Under the pieces are notes generated by a model. The model made no database searches, was not told the origin of the DNA, and saw nothing but the letters and a program-made list of their open reading frames with translations. 40,693 bases of DNA, from IMG/VR virus record IMGVR_UViG_3300031552_000011, positions 1 to 40,693 of that record; one strand, given 5' to 3'. A program made the translations under genes and the position numbers. This DNA comes from a virus. Below, in pieces: positions 4,937 through 39,087 of the stretch (position 1 is the first letter of the stretch; each line of letters opens with the position of its first letter).

Positions 4937-5740
4937 CTAGCCCCAAATCTTGTCTGACAAAGCTACGACGTACGCTGGATCTTCTACGCTCGAACTTTCC
5001 ACAAAATAGAAGTCCAACATGTTCTCGTAGACGAGATGGTTGTTGATGACCTCTGCTTTTCCAGCTCCATTGCGGATATGGTCACACGTGATCCGTCCGT
5101 CGCTGTGGAAGCCGCACCATGGCAACGAGCAGACCGTGCGCTCTACCAACGCACCCATGCTGTGGCCTATGCGGTTCTTGTGTTGCACAAGCTGCGCCAG
5201 GCGCTGATCTTTCGAGCGGTCAAACCCCTTCAGGATTTTGACGTGCCAGCGGTTGCGAAATTTGACCATCGTCGCGTCGAAGATGACACCTTTGGCGCGA
5301 GTGTCATCCAGATTATCGTGGTCTTGGTGAACGGGCTTTCCGATGAACGTCTGGAAGGCCACCCGACCAATGGGGGTACGCCACTCTGTGAGCTCCCCAT
5401 AGGTGAACGCGTCCATGTTGCGGTTGGGAAAATCTGCAACAACTATCGGCACATCCACCAGCACGTAGTCTGCGATGTGGGGGCTGATGTGGTAGCGTTG
5501 AGCGCAGAAGGGAAGCCAGGAGATGTCCATGAAACCGCAGGCACAGTTCCCTACCTTCTCGAGCTCAGAACCAGCTATGCGAAGGTTGGTTCCAGACTTG
5601 TGCACCTCAAGCGTGCGCCCCTCGATAATCGCTGGTTCATCGACAAACTTGTTGCCGTCGAAACGGCGCGAAAGGAAGGGCTCTCCAATGTGGAGACCGG
5701 GGCCAGCTTGAACAATCTGTGTGGTTGGTGTTATGTACAT
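4937..5740 (-). CDS. Prohead maturation protease
   Basis: A 267-residue protein if started at the ATG at 5740 (MYITPTTQIV). It has the layout of phage head-maturation serine proteases related to T4 gp21 and the HK97 family. A histidine sits in GKPVHQDHDN (H138) and a serine in IGHSMGALVE (S194), followed by an acidic SSVEDPAY turn. Position after portal and scaffold-like genes supports the role of cleaving head proteins in the assembling prohead. The frame stays open upstream to a GTG at 5821, but that stretch contains two hairpins (5779-5821), so the ATG is preferred even though no strong ribosome site precedes it. Confidence 0.8.
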   Translation of the reverse strand: MYITPTTQIVQAGPGLHIGEPFLSRRFDGNKFVDEPAIIEGRTLEVHKSGTNLRIAGSELEKVGNCACGFMDISWLPFCAQRYHISPHIADYVLVDVPIVVADFPNRNMDAFTYGELTEWRTPIGRVAFQTFIGKPVHQDHDNLDDTRAKGVIFDATMVKFRNRWHVKILKGFDRSKDQRLAQLVQHKNRIGHSMGALVERTVCSLPWCGFHSDGRITCDHIRNGAGKAEVINNHLVYENMLDFYFVESSSVEDPAYVVALSDKIWG

Positions 5741-24824: not shown

Positions 24825-24847
24825 TTGCCCCTCCTTGTTACACTTTA

Positions 24848-24932
24848 TGCTCGCACCGGGACTCGAACCCGGACGGGAATTACCCCAGTGGATTTTAAAT
24901 CCACCGCGTATCACCGATTTCGCCATGCGAGC
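24848..24932 (-). tRNA. tRNA-Leu (anticodon UAA)
   Basis: 85 nt without encoded CCA. Acceptor GCTCGCA/TGCGAGC with discriminator A, anticodon loop TTTAAAA in stem GTGGA/TCCAC, a long variable arm (class II) and T-arm CCGGGTTCGAGTCCCGG. All tRNA-Leu features are intact. It reads UUA and UUG. Its own sigma70-like promoter is at 24987-24959. Confidence 0.95.
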
Positions 24933-24936
24933 ACAT

Positions 24937-28951: not shown

Positions 28952-29036
28952 TGCCGGGCCCGGGACTTGAACCCGGAAGGAGCAAAGCTCCAAAGGATTT
29001 TGAGTCCTTCGCGTGAACCAATTTCGCCAGCCCGGC
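28952..29036 (-). tRNA. tRNA-Leu (anticodon CAA)
   Basis: 85 nt, class II. Acceptor GCCGGGC/GCCCGGC with discriminator A, anticodon loop CTCAAAA in stem AAGGA/TCCTT, long variable arm, T-arm CCGGGTTCAAGTCCCGG. It reads UUG. No promoter is seen immediately upstream; it lies directly after the stop of the gene at 29038, so it is probably cut out of that mRNA. Confidence 0.95.
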
Positions 29037-29749: not shown

Positions 29750-29768
29750 ATGTATTCTCCCGTCTATA

Positions 29769-29852
29769 TACTGGCGGAGAGACTCGAACTCTCACGGGAT
29801 TTCTCCCACTGGGACCTAAACCCAGCGCGTATCGCCATTTCGCCACGCCAGC
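29769..29852 (-). tRNA. tRNA-Leu (anticodon UAG)
   Basis: 84 nt, class II. Acceptor GCTGGCG/CGCCAGT with discriminator A, anticodon loop TTTAGGT in stem CTGGG/CCCAG, T-arm GAGAGTTCGAGTCTCTC. It reads CUA and other CUN codons. A sigma70 promoter lies at 29897-29869. Confidence 0.95.
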
Positions 29853-29868
29853 AAAAACAATACGATGT

Positions 29869-29941: not shown

Positions 29942-30970
29942 TTAGATATCGAAGCGCTTGGACAGCTTCCAGCCCTTGCGCTCGTCCCAACCATCCGACA
30001 CGACCATCGATGCGTACAGCACCTGGCCCGACGTCTGATCAGTAGCAACCTGGCCGAAGAACTGATCGTTGCGGATCGTCACGATGTCCGCTCGAGCATG
30101 TCCAGCACGCTGCTCCTGGTCCTCCTGGAACTGGTCGTCCAGCAACTGGCGTACCTGGCGCCGTGCCAGCTCTTCCTGCTCTGCCTCCACATGCTCAAGC
30201 GCAGAGCACAGGTCATCGAGGTTAGACAGATCCTGCACCTTCAACGGCACGCGCGTCTTCAGCACCGTCTCTGTCTTCTGCGCCTGACGCGATGCAGCAA
30301 TGGCAGCAGACCCGTAGCACACACGTACCAGCGGCTCCCAAACACTCCGCCAGTACTCAGTAGACGGAGCTCGTTCGCAGCCTACCACGTCGCCGTTAAT
30401 CAGGATGATCGCGCCTACCTGATTCTCGACCGTCTCGAACTCCGCGATGAACTGGTCCAGCTGACGCTCGTATCCCTGAATGTAGGTCACGAGGTTTCTG
30501 CTGTCGCCCAGACCAGAGCTCGTGTTGTAGGAACCAATCGAGTTCCACAGCTTGCTGTAGTTGCGCGCCTTCCGGTTCTCCAGCGCAGGCTTGCGCAGCG
30601 CTAGTGGAAGGATGAGCATCTTGTGCTCACCACGGCTGATCATGCCAGCCTGGTTCGCCTGAATGCACATGGCGTTCTCCCAGCTCTGCTGACGCTTCGC
30701 CGGAACAATGCCTGCCGTCGACATGGCGTGGTCCTGGGCAGCCTGCTTTACGATGTAGCCTACATGCGACGGGAGCAGCACAGGCTTATCCGCCGGGTTC
30801 GTGAAATTCATCGTGCCATAGGTACTGGTACCAACACGCACGATATCAGGAGTGGCGAACCGGTCATCCTGCATGGACTGCTCCATGGTCAACGGGATGA
30901 TCTGCATTGCGCCCACCGTCTGAATCCGGCCTACCTCACAGCCGCGAAGGATTTCTCTGATCGTCAACAT
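29942..30970 (-). CDS. ARPP-1-domain-like protein
   Basis: A 342-residue protein with a perfect AGGAGGTG ribosome site, 11 nt after the Ro60-like gene. The N-terminal half (IIPLTMEQSM; MNFTNPADKPVLLPSHVGYI; AQDHAMSTAGIVPA; SWENAMCIQ; LPLALRKPALENRK) follows the layout I recall for the ARPP-1 domain, a family described from neighbourhoods of ADP-ribosylglycohydrolase, rhodanese-phosphatase and RNA-repair genes. The C-terminal half has a long charged coiled coil (about 240-290). A function in RNA or ADP-ribose handling with the Ro60-like partner is inferred. A generic phage protein is the alternative. Confidence 0.5.
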   Translation of the reverse strand: MLTIREILRGCEVGRIQTVGAMQIIPLTMEQSMQDDRFATPDIVRVGTSTYGTMNFTNPADKPVLLPSHVGYIVKQAAQDHAMSTAGIVPAKRQQSWENAMCIQANQAGMISRGEHKMLILPLALRKPALENRKARNYSKLWNSIGSYNTSSGLGDSRNLVTYIQGYERQLDQFIAEFETVENQVGAIILINGDVVGCERAPSTEYWRSVWEPLVRVCYGSAAIAASRQAQKTETVLKTRVPLKVQDLSNLDDLCSALEHVEAEQEELARRQVRQLLDDQFQEDQEQRAGHARADIVTIRNDQFFGQVATDQTSGQVLYASMVVSDGWDERKGWKLSKRFDI

Positions 30971-30981
30971 TTTTTCACCTC

Positions 30982-33099
30982 CTATCGACGCAGCTGCTCA
31001 GCCGCCTGGCGACCGAGATCTGTGTGCAGAATGTAGTCGTTACCGCTCATCTGAACCAACCCACGACGCTGCAAAGCGGTTACCGTATTCGGTGCAGCAA
31101 TTCCACGGTAGCGGACGTTGGCACCTTCTCTAGGTGCTCTGGTGTACAGGTCCACCAAAGCCGACTTCATCGTAGAAGTCAGATCCTTGAGCACCTTTTC
31201 TACCTTCTTGCCGTTCTTTCCTGCGCCGAGAGCACGCTCCCGCGTCGCTGCCGCGAGAGGCTGCTTTCCGCTGATCGCTGCCCTTGCAGCAGTACGACCA
31301 CGCTGCAGCAGCACCTTCAGCCCCGCCAGCGGATCGTGCTCGAGCGCCTCGCGCAGCATGATGGTCGCGAGGGCCCGTGCATCCTGCACCGCCAACGTAG
31401 GCACCAAGTCTGGAGCCAGACGACGCACGGAAGCAGTCTCTGCAGCGGCTACCGGGTTCAGGTGGTAGATCGGCGTCGAAACGCCAACCTTCCGAAGTGC
31501 CCGAACAACCTCTGCGAAACGGCCAGCCGGGGTGTTGTCGTAACCATCGCTGATTACGAAAACAGAGCTCGGCCCGTGATCACGAACAGCCTGCACCAGC
31601 GGGAGCGCCAGTGACGTATCGCCAGCCGGGCGCACCAAGCGTCGACCACGATCATTGCCACCCACGATAATCCGCTTTGCACCGCCAGCTACCAGCATAT
31701 CACTGATAGCCAGAGCCGCAGCCATCGGACGCAGCTTCTGAGTCTTCTCGTCACCGAGCATGGAACCAGAAGCGTCCACCAACACCACAGCACCCTCACA
31801 GCTTACCGGGAACGACGTGGCTGCCTGTGCAGCCTTCTCGTCCAACGCAGCAGTGATGCGAGCGTCCATACCACGCTCGTAGGCGTAAATGTACAGCTTG
31901 ACCGCGTCGTAGTGCGTCGGGTCGAAATCGACCGTCGTACCAGCCTTCTCCACGCGCCGCTGGTGCTTGATCTTCTGGCCGTCCGTGAACGCACCCGTCT
32001 TCGCCGTCAAACGCAAAACGTCGTCGTGCGTCTTCGTCGGGTGGTACTTGGACCGAATGCCCTCCAGTACCTCTGGCGGCAGATTACGTCCAGCCGCCAG
32101 ATCATCCCGAGCAGCTACGAACGCACGCAGCAACGGAGTGGTCCAACGCCCCTTGGTAGCACCCAGCACGAACGCAATGCACTCCTGAACGTCATCCTTC
32201 TGATCCTCCACGTACGCCCATACATGCTCCTCCAGGATGCTACGCTCCTTCTGCGTCCAAGCACGCTTTCGGCAAATGGAGCCGATAACGCTGGCCATCC
32301 GCTTGCCCCAGGCGTGCTGCAGTGCCAGCTTCAGCTTACGCCGGTACTTGACACTCCACCACGGCAGCTTGTCCGAGCCAAGCAACGAGCACAGGATGAC
32401 CCGGCGTGTACGGCTGTTGTTGCAGCCAGACTCACGGAGCATCGCAAACAGCTGGAACATACGAGGAGTCGTGATACTGGTCGCCAGCGCACGAATTACC
32501 TCGCGTTCCATCTGAAGCTCGTGGTCGGACGGCTCACCCACTCCCGGCCACTCGAGCAGCATCCAGGAGGCGATCTTCCGCGCGTTATCTGTCAATCCCG
32601 ACAGGCACACCAGCAGGCTGTACGTCTGACGGTCCATCCCGAAAAGGGTGGCGTGCGCCAGGCGCTCCGCACGCAGCTGGTCCTCCTTCGTGTTGTAGTG
32701 CGTCGCGCGGCCCATGCCAGTCGTGGCGATGTCCAGGAAGCTGGTTACGACACGGCCCACGATGCGCTTCTGCCGGTCGTTGAGATCGGCAATGGCGTCC
32801 CCACGAAGCAGTCGCTTGGCGAGCCCGTGCACCTCAGGGATGCCGTACTGCTCACAGTACACCTTGTTGCTCGTTGCGACGTCACGGATGCGCTTGGCCT
32901 CGGCCTGGTCGGCTACGATATAACCGTCCAGGATCCGACCATCCGGCCCGGCGACCGCCTTCAAACCAGGCTCGACAGAGAGGCCTAGTTGCAGTCCCAG
33001 CTTGGCACCATTGTCATTGCTGTCCATGAACAGCACGTGTGATGTGGTTCGCGTAGCGAGCTCACGACGCAGATCGGTAGTGCTCAATCCCTTTCGCAT
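30982..33099 (-). CDS. Ro60/TROVE-like RNA-binding protein with vWA domain
   Basis: A 705-residue protein from the ATG at 33099 (GGAGGT upstream). Residues about 60-430 are helical repeats. A segment PTHYDAVKLYIYAYERG and an ALD helix then lead into a vWA domain with a complete MIDAS: DASGSM (442-447), T495 in GDTSLAL, and D518 in ISDGYDN. A HEAT-like ring closed by a vWA domain is the architecture of Ro60/Rsr, which binds Y RNAs and the 3' ends of misfolded RNAs. The C-terminal 130 residues are an extra basic, winged-helix-like extension. The five-RNA array just upstream strongly supports the Ro60 reading. Some mycobacteriophages are known to encode Ro homologues. A MoxR-associated vWA protein is the alternative. 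Confidence 0.65.
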   Translation of the reverse strand: MRKGLSTTDLRRELATRTTSHVLFMDSNDNGAKLGLQLGLSVEPGLKAVAGPDGRILDGYIVADQAEAKRIRDVATSNKVYCEQYGIPEVHGLAKRLLRGDAIADLNDRQKRIVGRVVTSFLDIATTGMGRATHYNTKEDQLRAERLAHATLFGMDRQTYSLLVCLSGLTDNARKIASWMLLEWPGVGEPSDHELQMEREVIRALATSITTPRMFQLFAMLRESGCNNSRTRRVILCSLLGSDKLPWWSVKYRRKLKLALQHAWGKRMASVIGSICRKRAWTQKERSILEEHVWAYVEDQKDDVQECIAFVLGATKGRWTTPLLRAFVAARDDLAAGRNLPPEVLEGIRSKYHPTKTHDDVLRLTAKTGAFTDGQKIKHQRRVEKAGTTVDFDPTHYDAVKLYIYAYERGMDARITAALDEKAAQAATSFPVSCEGAVVLVDASGSMLGDEKTQKLRPMAAALAISDMLVAGGAKRIIVGGNDRGRRLVRPAGDTSLALPLVQAVRDHGPSSVFVISDGYDNTPAGRFAEVVRALRKVGVSTPIYHLNPVAAAETASVRRLAPDLVPTLAVQDARALATIMLREALEHDPLAGLKVLLQRGRTAARAAISGKQPLAAATRERALGAGKNGKKVEKVLKDLTSTMKSALVDLYTRAPREGANVRYRGIAAPNTVTALQRRGLVQMSGNDYILHTDLGRQAAEQLRR

Positions 33100-33139: not shown

Positions 33140-33173
33140 TAAAAAAGGGTCCACACGTTGTCATGAGGACCCT
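33140..33173 (-). terminator. Intrinsic terminator closing the small-RNA array
   Basis: AGGGTCC pairs with GGACCCT across a 14-nt loop, followed by a run of six T (minus strand). It lies between the fifth RNA and the Ro60-like ATG. No promoter is seen between it and the ATG, so Ro60-like mRNA probably arises by read-through. A second hairpin (CTCTGC-GTCC-GCAGAG, about 33117-33132) follows just before the ribosome site. Confidence 0.75.
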
Positions 33174-33195
33174 CCGCCTATTCGGCGTAAAATTG

Positions 33196-33316
33196 TCGAG
33201 GAAATGTTGCTGTCGTTGCTAGCGTAGGCTCTCACACCCCCTAAAGAGGACCTCCGAAGAGATCCCCTTTAGCGGGGTGTGTGAGAATTATGCTGTACCA
33301 ACAGCCAAGTCCTCGA
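33196..33316 (-). ncRNA. Array RNA 5: Y RNA-like stem with long UUCG hairpin
   Basis: Basal helix P1 TCGAGG (33316-33311)/CCTCGA (33201-33196), 5' loop ACTTG, helix P2 GCTGTTG (33305-33299)/CGACAGC (33215-33209) with one G-U pair, 3' loop AACATTT. The domain above P2 begins GTACAGCATA, as in array RNA 1, but carries no tRNA fold. It is instead an almost fully paired hairpin of about 24 bp (33286-33230) capped by UUCG. It is the last member before the terminator. The shared base with a different top suggests a scaffold with exchangeable effector domains. Confidence 0.6.
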
Positions 33317-33350
33317 AACCGTAATGGGCCTAAAAAGCCTCGAATAAAAG

Positions 33351-33468
33351 TGGTGGAAGTGTGAACGTCAAGTTGGTGTTGAACACGGGATTTGAACCCG
33401 CAACCTCTTCGTTAATGGCGAAGCGCTCATCCATTGAGCTTGTTCTGTACTGACGTTGCCGTCCACCA
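33351..33468 (-). ncRNA. Array RNA 4: Y RNA-like with Asn-type tRNA mimic
   Basis: P1 TGGTGG (33468-33463)/CCACCA (33356-33351), 5' loop ACGGC, P2 AACGTCA (33457-33451)/TGACGTT (33370-33364), 3' loop CACACTT. On top is a tRNA-like domain (33448-33374) with D-arm GCTC/GAGC, anticodon arm CTTCG/CGAAG with loop CCATTAA, and T-arm GCGGGTTCAAATCCCGT. The acceptor has only four pairs (GAAC/GTTC), position 33 is C rather than U, and the anticodon would be AUU. These defects make a working tRNA unlikely and a tRNA mimic likely. Confidence 0.7.
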
Positions 33469-33504
33469 AACTGTAACGACGCCTCCGCGCCGGTTGTTGT
33501 TAGT

Positions 33505-33633
33505 GAGAGGTAGTACAAGAGTGGTTTGTGCTTTTAAGCAACCCCGCCATAAAAGCGGCGGGGCCTGGACTCGAACCAGGAATTCCTTGTTTTGGAGACA
33601 AGTGCTTTACCGTAGTCACTCCTAAGTCCTCTC
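33505..33633 (-). ncRNA. Array RNA 3: Y RNA-like with permuted Trp-type tRNA mimic
   Basis: P1 GAGAGG (33633-33628)/CCTCTC (33510-33505), 5' loop ACTT, P2 AGGAGTG (33623-33617)/CACTCTT (33523-33517), 3' loop GTACTA. The tRNA part is in permuted order. First come D-stem 3' strand AAGC, anticodon arm CTTGT/ACAAG with loop CTCCAAA (anticodon CCA), T-arm CCTGGTTCGAGTCCAGG and acceptor 3' strand CCCCGCC. After the 8-nt loop GCTTTTAT come acceptor 5' strand GGCGGGG, TT and D-stem 5' strand GCTT. The chain opens in the D-loop, into P2. Confidence 0.75.
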
Positions 33634-33674
33634 GAATCCGTATCTCTTCAGCACATCGTGCTGGGAATTTAAAG

Positions 33675-33816
33675 TCGCGGTAATGCCCGGGTAAAGAGAT
33701 GGATGTTATCCACAGCATCTAAAGCTGTTGCCTTTACCAATTAGGCTACGTCGCCGTAAGTGGCGACGCCAGGACTTGAACCTGGATGATTCCTGTACTT
33801 ACCCAGAAGTCCGCGA
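33675..33816 (-). ncRNA. Array RNA 2: Y RNA-like with permuted UAG tRNA mimic
   Basis: P1 TCGCGG (33816-33811)/CCGCGA (33680-33675), 5' loop ACTT, P2 CTGGGTAA (33806-33799)/TTACCCGG (33694-33687), 3' loop GCATTA. Permuted tRNA order: T-arm CCAGGTTCAAGTCCTGG and acceptor 3' strand CGTCGCC come first. The 6-nt loop ACTTAC follows, then acceptor 5' strand GGCGACG, TA, D-arm GCCTAATTGGTAAAGGC and anticodon arm ACAGC/GCTGT with loop TTTAGAT (anticodon UAG in a Gln-type loop). The chain opens in the variable region, into P2. Confidence 0.75.
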
Positions 33817-33859
33817 ACTCGTTATCTCCGATAAGCAGCCGTAGCTGCGAAAACTTAAA

Positions 33860-33984
33860 TCGAGGTAGTTCGACAGTAAACTTGGTGGTGCACGGAGCAG
33901 GATTTGAACCTGCGACCTTCGGTTTGATAGACCGATGCTCATCCAACTGAGCTATCTATGCTGTAGTTACTGTGCCGTCCTCGA
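33860..33984 (-). ncRNA. Array RNA 1: Y RNA-like with Asp-type tRNA mimic
   Basis: P1 TCGAGG (33984-33979)/CCTCGA (33865-33860), 5' loop ACGGC, P2 ACAGTAA (33973-33967)/TTACTGT (33879-33873), 3' loop CGAACTA. The tRNA-like domain (33961-33886) is in normal order: acceptor GCATAGA/TCCGTGC (one A-C mismatch), D-arm GCTC/GAGC, anticodon arm TCGGT/ACCGA with loop CTATCAA, T-arm GCAGGTTCAAATCCTGC, then A-CCA. The anticodon would be AUC; A34 in place of G34 is abnormal for bacteria-type tRNA-Asp. It is the first member after the promoter. Confidence 0.7.
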
Positions 33985-34011
33985 AAGTTTGTGTTTCCCA
34001 ATCTAAGTGCC

Positions 34012-34039
34012 ATTGTAGCGAACTGAGCGCTGGTGTCAA
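34012..34039 (-). promoter_or_regulatory. Sigma70 promoter of the small-RNA array
   Basis: Perfect TTGACA (34039-34034), 16-nt spacer, TACAAT (34017-34012) on the minus strand, about 20-30 nt before array RNA 1. It is among the best promoter matches in the window and directs a transcript through all five RNAs to the terminator at 33173-33140. Confidence 0.75.
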
Positions 34040-38866: not shown

Positions 38867-38952
38867 TGCGACTGGGGAGACTCGGACTCCCACGAGCACT
38901 AAGGCCCACTGGTACCTGAAACCAGCGCGTCTACCAATTCCGCCACAGTCGC
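38867..38952 (-). tRNA. tRNA-Leu (anticodon CAG)
   Basis: 86 nt, class II. Acceptor GCGACTG/CAGTCGC with discriminator A, anticodon loop TTCAGGT in stem CTGGT/ACCAG, T-arm GGGAGTCCGAGTCTCCC (C55 in place of T55 is unusual). It reads CUG. It lies 4 nt after the next tRNA. Confidence 0.93.
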
Positions 38953-38956
38953 GGGA

Positions 38957-39041
<85 letters not shown>

Positions 39042-39087
39042 AGGCAGCTACTCCATGACTGCTATAACAAAGATGTCAAGGGTAAAG

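Follow-up and report, generated by a model that had tools for sequence, protein, structure and literature searches.

Circularly permuted tRNA-like domains in a Y-RNA-like array upstream of a predicted Ro60-fold gene in a phage

The closest described relatives of the RNAs considered here are Y RNAs of the YrlA type. YrlA is already known as a circular permutation of transfer RNA (tRNA) (PMC11472068). It mimics the D, T, and acceptor arms of tRNA, links Rsr to PNPase as a tether, and is a substrate of the modifying enzymes DusA and TruB (PMC8394870), and it has been suggested that it may inhibit an anticodon nuclease (PMC7790460). The transcripts of the permuted tRNA genes of algae and archaea are circularised and then cut back to the standard tRNA form (PMC10085705). 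Phage tRNAs with altered anticodon loops are free tRNAs that have been linked to anticodon nucleases and proposed to be nuclease-insensitive (PMC10264068). Here we analyse an array of tRNA-like domains in a viral DNA of 40,693 nucleotides (nt) (IMG/VR record IMGVR_UViG_3300031552_000011, positions 1 to 40,693), hereafter called the window. The window is a fragment of a tailed phage with terminase and portal genes, and a comparison with named phages by DNA similarity matched nothing except tRNA scraps. The array probably forms part of a Ro60-Y RNA-type ribonucleoprotein encoded by the phage.

Y-RNA-like modules of the window

Positions 33985–33195 of the minus strand, which also carries the two protein genes described below, comprise five tandem Y-RNA-like modules built on one common frame. 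The 5′ half of the frame is an outer stem of 5–6 base pairs (bp) ending in GG and followed by AC; 11 nt then separate this GGAC from TACAG, or from TACGG in module 3, the motif overall being TAC(A/G)G. The last part of the stretch from GGAC to TAC(A/G)G is the 5′ strand of an inner stem, and the insert comes next. In the 3′ half, a short asymmetric loop separates the 3′ strand of the inner stem from that of the outer stem, which comes last. The insert is a tRNA-like domain of normal order in modules 1 and 4, a permuted tRNA-like domain in modules 2 and 3, and a plain hairpin in module 5; an anticodon arm was found in modules 1–4.

An earlier note on this DNA, made from the sequence alone, had reported the two permuted domains. 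Both acceptor hairpins that it quotes occur letter for letter on the minus strand (the note named no strand), and in both units the T-arm and the 3′ acceptor strand precede the 5′ acceptor strand, as it stated, with a loop of 6 nt (module 2) or 8 nt (module 3) between the two acceptor strands. In module 2 (33674–33817), the T-arm (33785–33769) is followed by the acceptor hairpin CGTCGCC-ACTTAC-GGCGACG (33768–33749), the D-arm (33746–33730), and the anticodon arm (33728–33712, anticodon UAG); the D-arm and the anticodon arm thus come after the 5′ acceptor strand, and the break lies in the variable loop. In module 3 (33504–33634), the anticodon arm (33602–33586, anticodon CCA) precedes the T-arm (33580–33564) and the acceptor hairpin CCCCGCC-GCTTTTAT-GGCGGGG (33563–33542, with G73), and the D-stem is split, so that the break lies in the D-loop. 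These are the break points that the note had assigned.

Its proposal that exchanging the halves yields full cloverleaves holds, and is supported by the fold stabilities and by the covariation of module 2. The fold z-scores, computed against 200 dinucleotide shuffles, were −5.10 for module 2 and −3.13 for module 3, and none of the 200 shuffles was equally stable. When five module 2 orthologues were aligned, pairing held in 96.1% of cells, and both sides had changed in 10 of 31 pairs; the shuffled mean was 5.0, and none of 500 shuffles reached the observed number. The covariation score was 0.342 versus 0.132, and the signal, to which the outer, inner, T, acceptor, and anticodon stems each contribute, was lost when the partner was slid by 1–3 columns. 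In addition to fold and covariation, module 2 has a weak match to YrlA; module 3 is supported by its fold and by an orthologue in one of the related loci (denoted below by L numbers), L001, with an identical break point and the anticodon GAA. Pairing of halves across neighbouring modules was considered and ruled out, as pairing and covariation fall inside modules. The presence of two permutations at one locus, which the note said would be new, is real. It is not unique: three modules are permuted in L002 and at least five in L056. The note had also overlooked the Y-RNA-type double stem that closes the units and the three further modules of the array.

Module 1 (33859–33985) combines the Y-type double stem with a normal-order tRNA-like domain (33961–33886, anticodon AUC; fold z-score −2.84). 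Module 4 (33350–33469; fold z-score −2.49) contains a normal-order domain (33448–33377) with a degenerate acceptor stem, C33, and the anticodon AUU, which scores 42.2 bits with the Rfam tRNA model. Both modules have orthologues in L001–L004. Module 5 (33195–33317) consists of the double stem and a long plain hairpin without tRNA likeness (fold z-score −10.0). A putative sigma-70-like promoter, TTGACA-16-TACAAT, lies upstream of the array at 34012–34039 (11/12 in a consensus scan), and an identical promoter-like sequence stands in front of module 1 in L001. On the 3′ side, a terminator-like hairpin (33141–33172; GGGTCC and GGACCC separated by 14 nt, followed by T6) was read directly from the sequence; its loop exceeds the length covered by the scan. 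The order on the minus strand is thus the promoter-like site, the five modules, the terminator-like hairpin, a Ro60-fold gene, and an ARPP-1 gene.

The Ro60-fold protein, ARPP-1, and related loci

The gene following the array (30982–33099, with its ATG at 33099 and the conserved start MRKGL) encodes a protein of 705 amino acids for which helical repeats and a VWA domain with DxSxS are predicted. The AlphaFold2 model, built from a 36-member alignment, has a predicted local distance difference test score (pLDDT) of 83 and a predicted template modelling score (pTM) of 0.77, and supersedes a poor five-sequence model (pLDDT 57). In a Foldseek search of the PDB, the two top matches were both Ro60 with RNA (1yvp_A, E-value 2.7e-5, and 2i91_A, E-value 5.3e-5; probability 1.00), and the model contains the helical-repeat ring and the VWA fold of Ro60. 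Sequence libraries gave a weak VWA match and nothing more, and none of 13 family members matched Pfam TROVE (PF05731). The array thus adjoins a gene whose product is Ro60-fold according to Foldseek and has no TROVE match; the modelled protein is a Ro60-fold protein rather than a Ro60 orthologue. The synteny and the predicted fold suggest that this protein very likely binds the module RNAs, and by analogy the double stem should be the presumed Ro-binding handle. As a separate observation, on the Minicystis chromosome (L090, L059) a canonical TROVE Ro60 gene lies just upstream of the Ro60-like gene, in the same large tRNA array.

The next gene (29942–30970) encodes an ARPP-1 domain protein (Pfam PF20208, E-value 1.4e-34), and ARPP-1 directly follows the Ro60-fold gene in 31 of 32 scanned loci. 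ARPP proteins have a conserved cysteine and glutamine and are proposed to act on the ribose of ADP-ribose; the paper describing them does not mention Ro60 or TROVE (PMC9503650).

Both phage contigs and the genomes of bacteria from several phyla contain related loci. The 3.1 kb upstream of the Ro60-like gene hold 73 modules in all, spread over 33 of 39 loci, as compared with 4 downstream, 5 in antisense, and 2.3 in dinucleotide shuffles. The 70 modules retained after filtering divide into 31 with a normal-order tRNA-like domain, 18 with a permuted one, and 21 without a recognisable T-arm, the last class being approximate, since a few of its members resemble tRNAs whose T-arm is unusual or cut (L063, L067, L077, L078). 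A permuted head together with an acceptor stem closed by a short loop is present in modules 2 and 3 of the window, and at least 18 modules of the family are permuted; the break points across the family lie in the D-loop, at the junction of the D and anticodon arms, or in the variable loop. A first scan of viral contigs with the handle pattern was discarded, as its matches beyond the known loci were mostly due to chance. Many of the loci, bacterial and some viral, lie within large tRNA arrays, with 38 ARAGORN calls in L059 (a few of which are modules), 34 in L077, and 24 in L062. Of 11 phage contigs, 6 have an RNA ligase (RtcB or another) exceeding the Pfam cut-off; 4 of the 11 have RtcB, which in two of these lies about 4–5 kb from the Ro60-like gene.

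Several further features were observed in the related loci. Upstream of the Ro60-like gene in L060, L061, L062, L065, L066, and L067, the head of Y-type modules is reduced to hardly more than one or two anticodon-like stem-loops, whose loops vary. A phage-encoded transfer-messenger RNA (tmRNA) gene directly follows a permuted Y-like module at L050:204-660 and L052:349-827. In phage locus L002 (4186-5934), the Y modules are separated from the Ro60-like gene by an inserted open reading frame resembling TnpB/Cas12f (Pfam Cas12f1-like_TNB, E-value 9.7e-25; PADLOC Cas12u4, E-value 3.8e-59); it is followed by seven palindromic repeats at a spacing of 62–63 nt, resembling an array of clustered regularly interspaced short palindromic repeats (CRISPR). 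In L001, an insertion resembling the remains of a transposase gene (5100-5700) lies between modules 3 and 4 and is preceded by a stretch resembling remnants of another module.

Anticodon variation and the possible role of the heads

The anticodons of the modules vary far more than the bodies that carry them. In four groups of orthologous modules, each of 2–5 sequences and thus small, the differences per site in the anticodon versus the rest were 0.70 versus 0.089, 0.80 versus 0.215, 0.44 versus 0.016, and 0.67 versus 0.029. Module 1 has a near-identical body in five phages, with the anticodons AUC in the window and UGA, UAU, UGC, and AGU in L001–L004. Likewise, five planctomycetes share a near-identical module body with the anticodon UUU, AUG, or CUU, and in all five the free tRNA-Cys just upstream has GCA. 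In the same comparison, the anticodons of the neighbouring free tRNA-Leu and tRNA-Cys genes are conserved, unlike those of the modules. The anticodon changes about as fast as codon sites with four-fold degeneracy (0.17–0.42 in the planctomycetes; the L001 and L003 rows, being out of frame, are left out of this comparison), which indicates that the anticodon is not constrained by decoding. We do not claim positive selection on the anticodon, as its rate is near that of the four-fold sites.

Several modules have C, A, or G at position 33, and A34 occurs; U33 and a purine at position 37 are mostly kept across modules. A hairpin with a 5-bp stem and a 7-nt loop, besides the T-arm, was present in 16 of 18 permuted inserts (shuffled mean 5.4) and in 13 of the 21 inserts lacking a T-arm (shuffled mean 3.2). 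Given free variation of the anticodon on a conserved tRNA body, and the occasional loss of U33, ordinary decoding is unlikely, and the tRNA-like domains quite probably do not decode. Separately, the window contains five free tRNA-Leu genes (UAA, CAA, UAG, CAG, and GAG) and one tRNA-Met gene (24847–24933, 28952–29036, 29768–29853, and 38867–39042), a leucine bias that is unusual for a phage.

On balance we favour the reading that the locus encodes a Ro60-Y RNA-type ribonucleoprotein of the phage, the heads of which serve as tRNA bait or docking sites. The promoter would drive the five modules, followed by the gene of the likely partner, the Ro60-fold VWA protein, and by that of ARPP-1. Each module would consist of a double-stem handle and a head, tRNA-like in four of the five, with the handle inserted at the acceptor ends, in the variable loop, or in the D-loop, and in relatives also at the junction of the D and anticodon arms. 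The domain would read as normal or permuted because the point of insertion differs, and tandem neighbouring tRNA genes may have been the raw material for the permutation. The tRNA-like domains would stay on the handle without decoding, and the heads would present tRNA-handling enzymes with the shape of a tRNA, its anticodon stem-loop included, whatever the anticodon. They would most plausibly act as bait or docking sites when host nucleases attack tRNAs, in partnership with the Ro60-like ring and ARPP-1. By analogy with Rsr and YrlA (PMC8394870; PMC7790460), the handle should bind the protein and the head an effector. The retained anticodon hairpin, the setting in tRNA arrays, and the RNA ligases in several phages speak for bait or docking; such a role towards tRNA-damaging or tRNA-repair enzymes is plausible, and we advance it tentatively. 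Less likely is a broader version, in which a Ro60-fold/ARPP-1 system of phages and bacterial tRNA arrays uses modules displaying whole, permuted, or bare anticodon stem-loops as decoys or sensors of anticodon nucleases.

Several observations weigh against the favoured reading. The rate of anticodon change fits neutral drift, and diversifying selection by nucleases is not supported. Modules 1 and 4 and many relatives have the normal tRNA order, which makes their release as tRNAs possible, and no tRNA part remains in module 5 of the window, module 6 of L002, and several relatives. The Foldseek TM-scores are modest (0.34 and 0.44), and an hhalign comparison with canonical Ro60 was non-significant (probability 4.8), the alignment being confined to the stretch of the VWA metal site. 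Finally, CCA is encoded in the acceptor loop after the discriminator in L054, L056, L077, and L085, suggesting that the acceptor end may be opened or the loop cut in some relatives.

The last point, together with the full cloverleaves, the RNA ligases of some phages, and the tRNA-Trp-like combination of G73 and anticodon CCA in module 3, would be expected of genuine permuted tRNA genes, in which RNase P and RNase Z cut the acceptor loop to give a tRNA that can be aminoacylated, its two pieces being either held together by the handle, like those of two-piece tmRNA, or ligated by RtcB. This is improbable, since close orthologues share a body and differ in anticodon, U33 is lost in several modules, anticodons with A34 occur, the handle is conserved and sealed, and the acceptor stem of module 4 has decayed. 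No tRNA-splicing endonuclease of the algal and archaeal permuted-tRNA type is known in bacteria. An ordinary phage tRNA cluster with decaying duplicated genes would account for the tRNA arrays around the loci, and in tandem copies a 3′ half standing before the 5′ half of the neighbouring gene would give the appearance of permutation as a by-product, so that the arrangement may plausibly have arisen in this way; as an explanation of the modules themselves it is very improbable, because the acceptor halves pair and covary inside a module, an identical handle at fixed spacing surrounds every unit, and the arrangement and the protein pair are conserved across distant phages and bacterial phyla.

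A more serious contender, although still doubtful, is a tether like YrlA, whose heads mainly dock PNPase or enzymes that modify or process tRNA and so steer the decay of structured RNA or RNA repair, the anticodon arm having no role. The functions described for YrlA (PMC8394870) are of this kind, module 2 matches YrlA exactly over the T, acceptor, and D arms, the anticodon rate is neutral, and RtcB lies near the Ro60-like gene in two phages. Such a dock would not need the anticodon stem-loop, U33, and purine 37, which are mostly kept, and the bare anticodon-like hairpins of L060, L062, and L066 have no D, T, or acceptor part. If the reading of the heads as bait for, or sensors of, anticodon nucleases is correct, it would add a new layer to the contest between phage and host over tRNAs, and would put to the test the suggestion that YrlA may inhibit an anticodon nuclease (PMC7790460). 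The proposed ribonucleoprotein also gives a testable reason for the presence of such genes in large phage and bacterial tRNA clusters.

Comparison with known systems

The earlier note had named two precedents for the permuted units, the YrlA Y RNAs and the permuted tRNA genes of algae and archaea. The former hint is borne out by the position of the array directly upstream of the Ro60-fold gene and by the Y-type double stem in every unit. As in YrlA (RF02553; PDB 6CU1; PMC11472068, PMC8394870, and the Rfam alignment), there are a basal stem, a permuted tRNA-like head, and an acceptor stem closed by a short loop; YrlA is encoded next to a Ro60-type gene, and the neighbouring gene here is of Ro60 type by predicted fold. 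The YrlA model scored 25.2 bits with module 2 (gathering threshold 69), spanning only the T-arm, the acceptor hairpin, and the D-arm; no module of the window reaches 69 bits, and no YrlA at the gathering level was found in 12 related loci. The array heads differ from YrlA, which has D, T, and acceptor arms only, in being complete cloverleaves with an anticodon arm, an arm also present in most relatives; furthermore, the handle occurs at several positions, and normal and permuted heads stand side by side. The Y RNA of Deinococcus radiodurans (RF01053), which accompanies Rsr/Ro60, shares the outer stem, internal loop, inner stem, and T-arm-like head, and its model gave a weak full-length alignment with module 4 (17.6 bits; threshold 80). 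Unlike Deinococcus Rsr/Ro60, the phage protein shares no detectable sequence similarity with canonical Ro60 beyond the VWA motif.

The likeness to algal and archaeal genes was not sustained beyond the 3′ half being encoded first and the short acceptor loop: the acceptor stem is sealed and covarying, the other ends lie in a conserved stem, the anticodon is free rather than conserved, and U33 is lost in places. The phage tRNAs of PMC10264068 are likewise phage-encoded tRNA bodies with unusual anticodon loops, but they are free tRNAs, whereas the bodies described here are embedded in Y-RNA-like handles. In the open-licence literature searched, the features new relative to YrlA are the anticodon arm, the several handle positions, the mixed heads, the separate Ro60-fold family, and the near-fixed ARPP-1 partner. 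Y-type RNA mimicry would thus extend to a whole tRNA including the anticodon arm, with the handle moved round the molecule; circular permutation would be a repeated solution rather than an accident; and a second Ro60-fold family and the ARPP-1 proteins would be tied to RNA.
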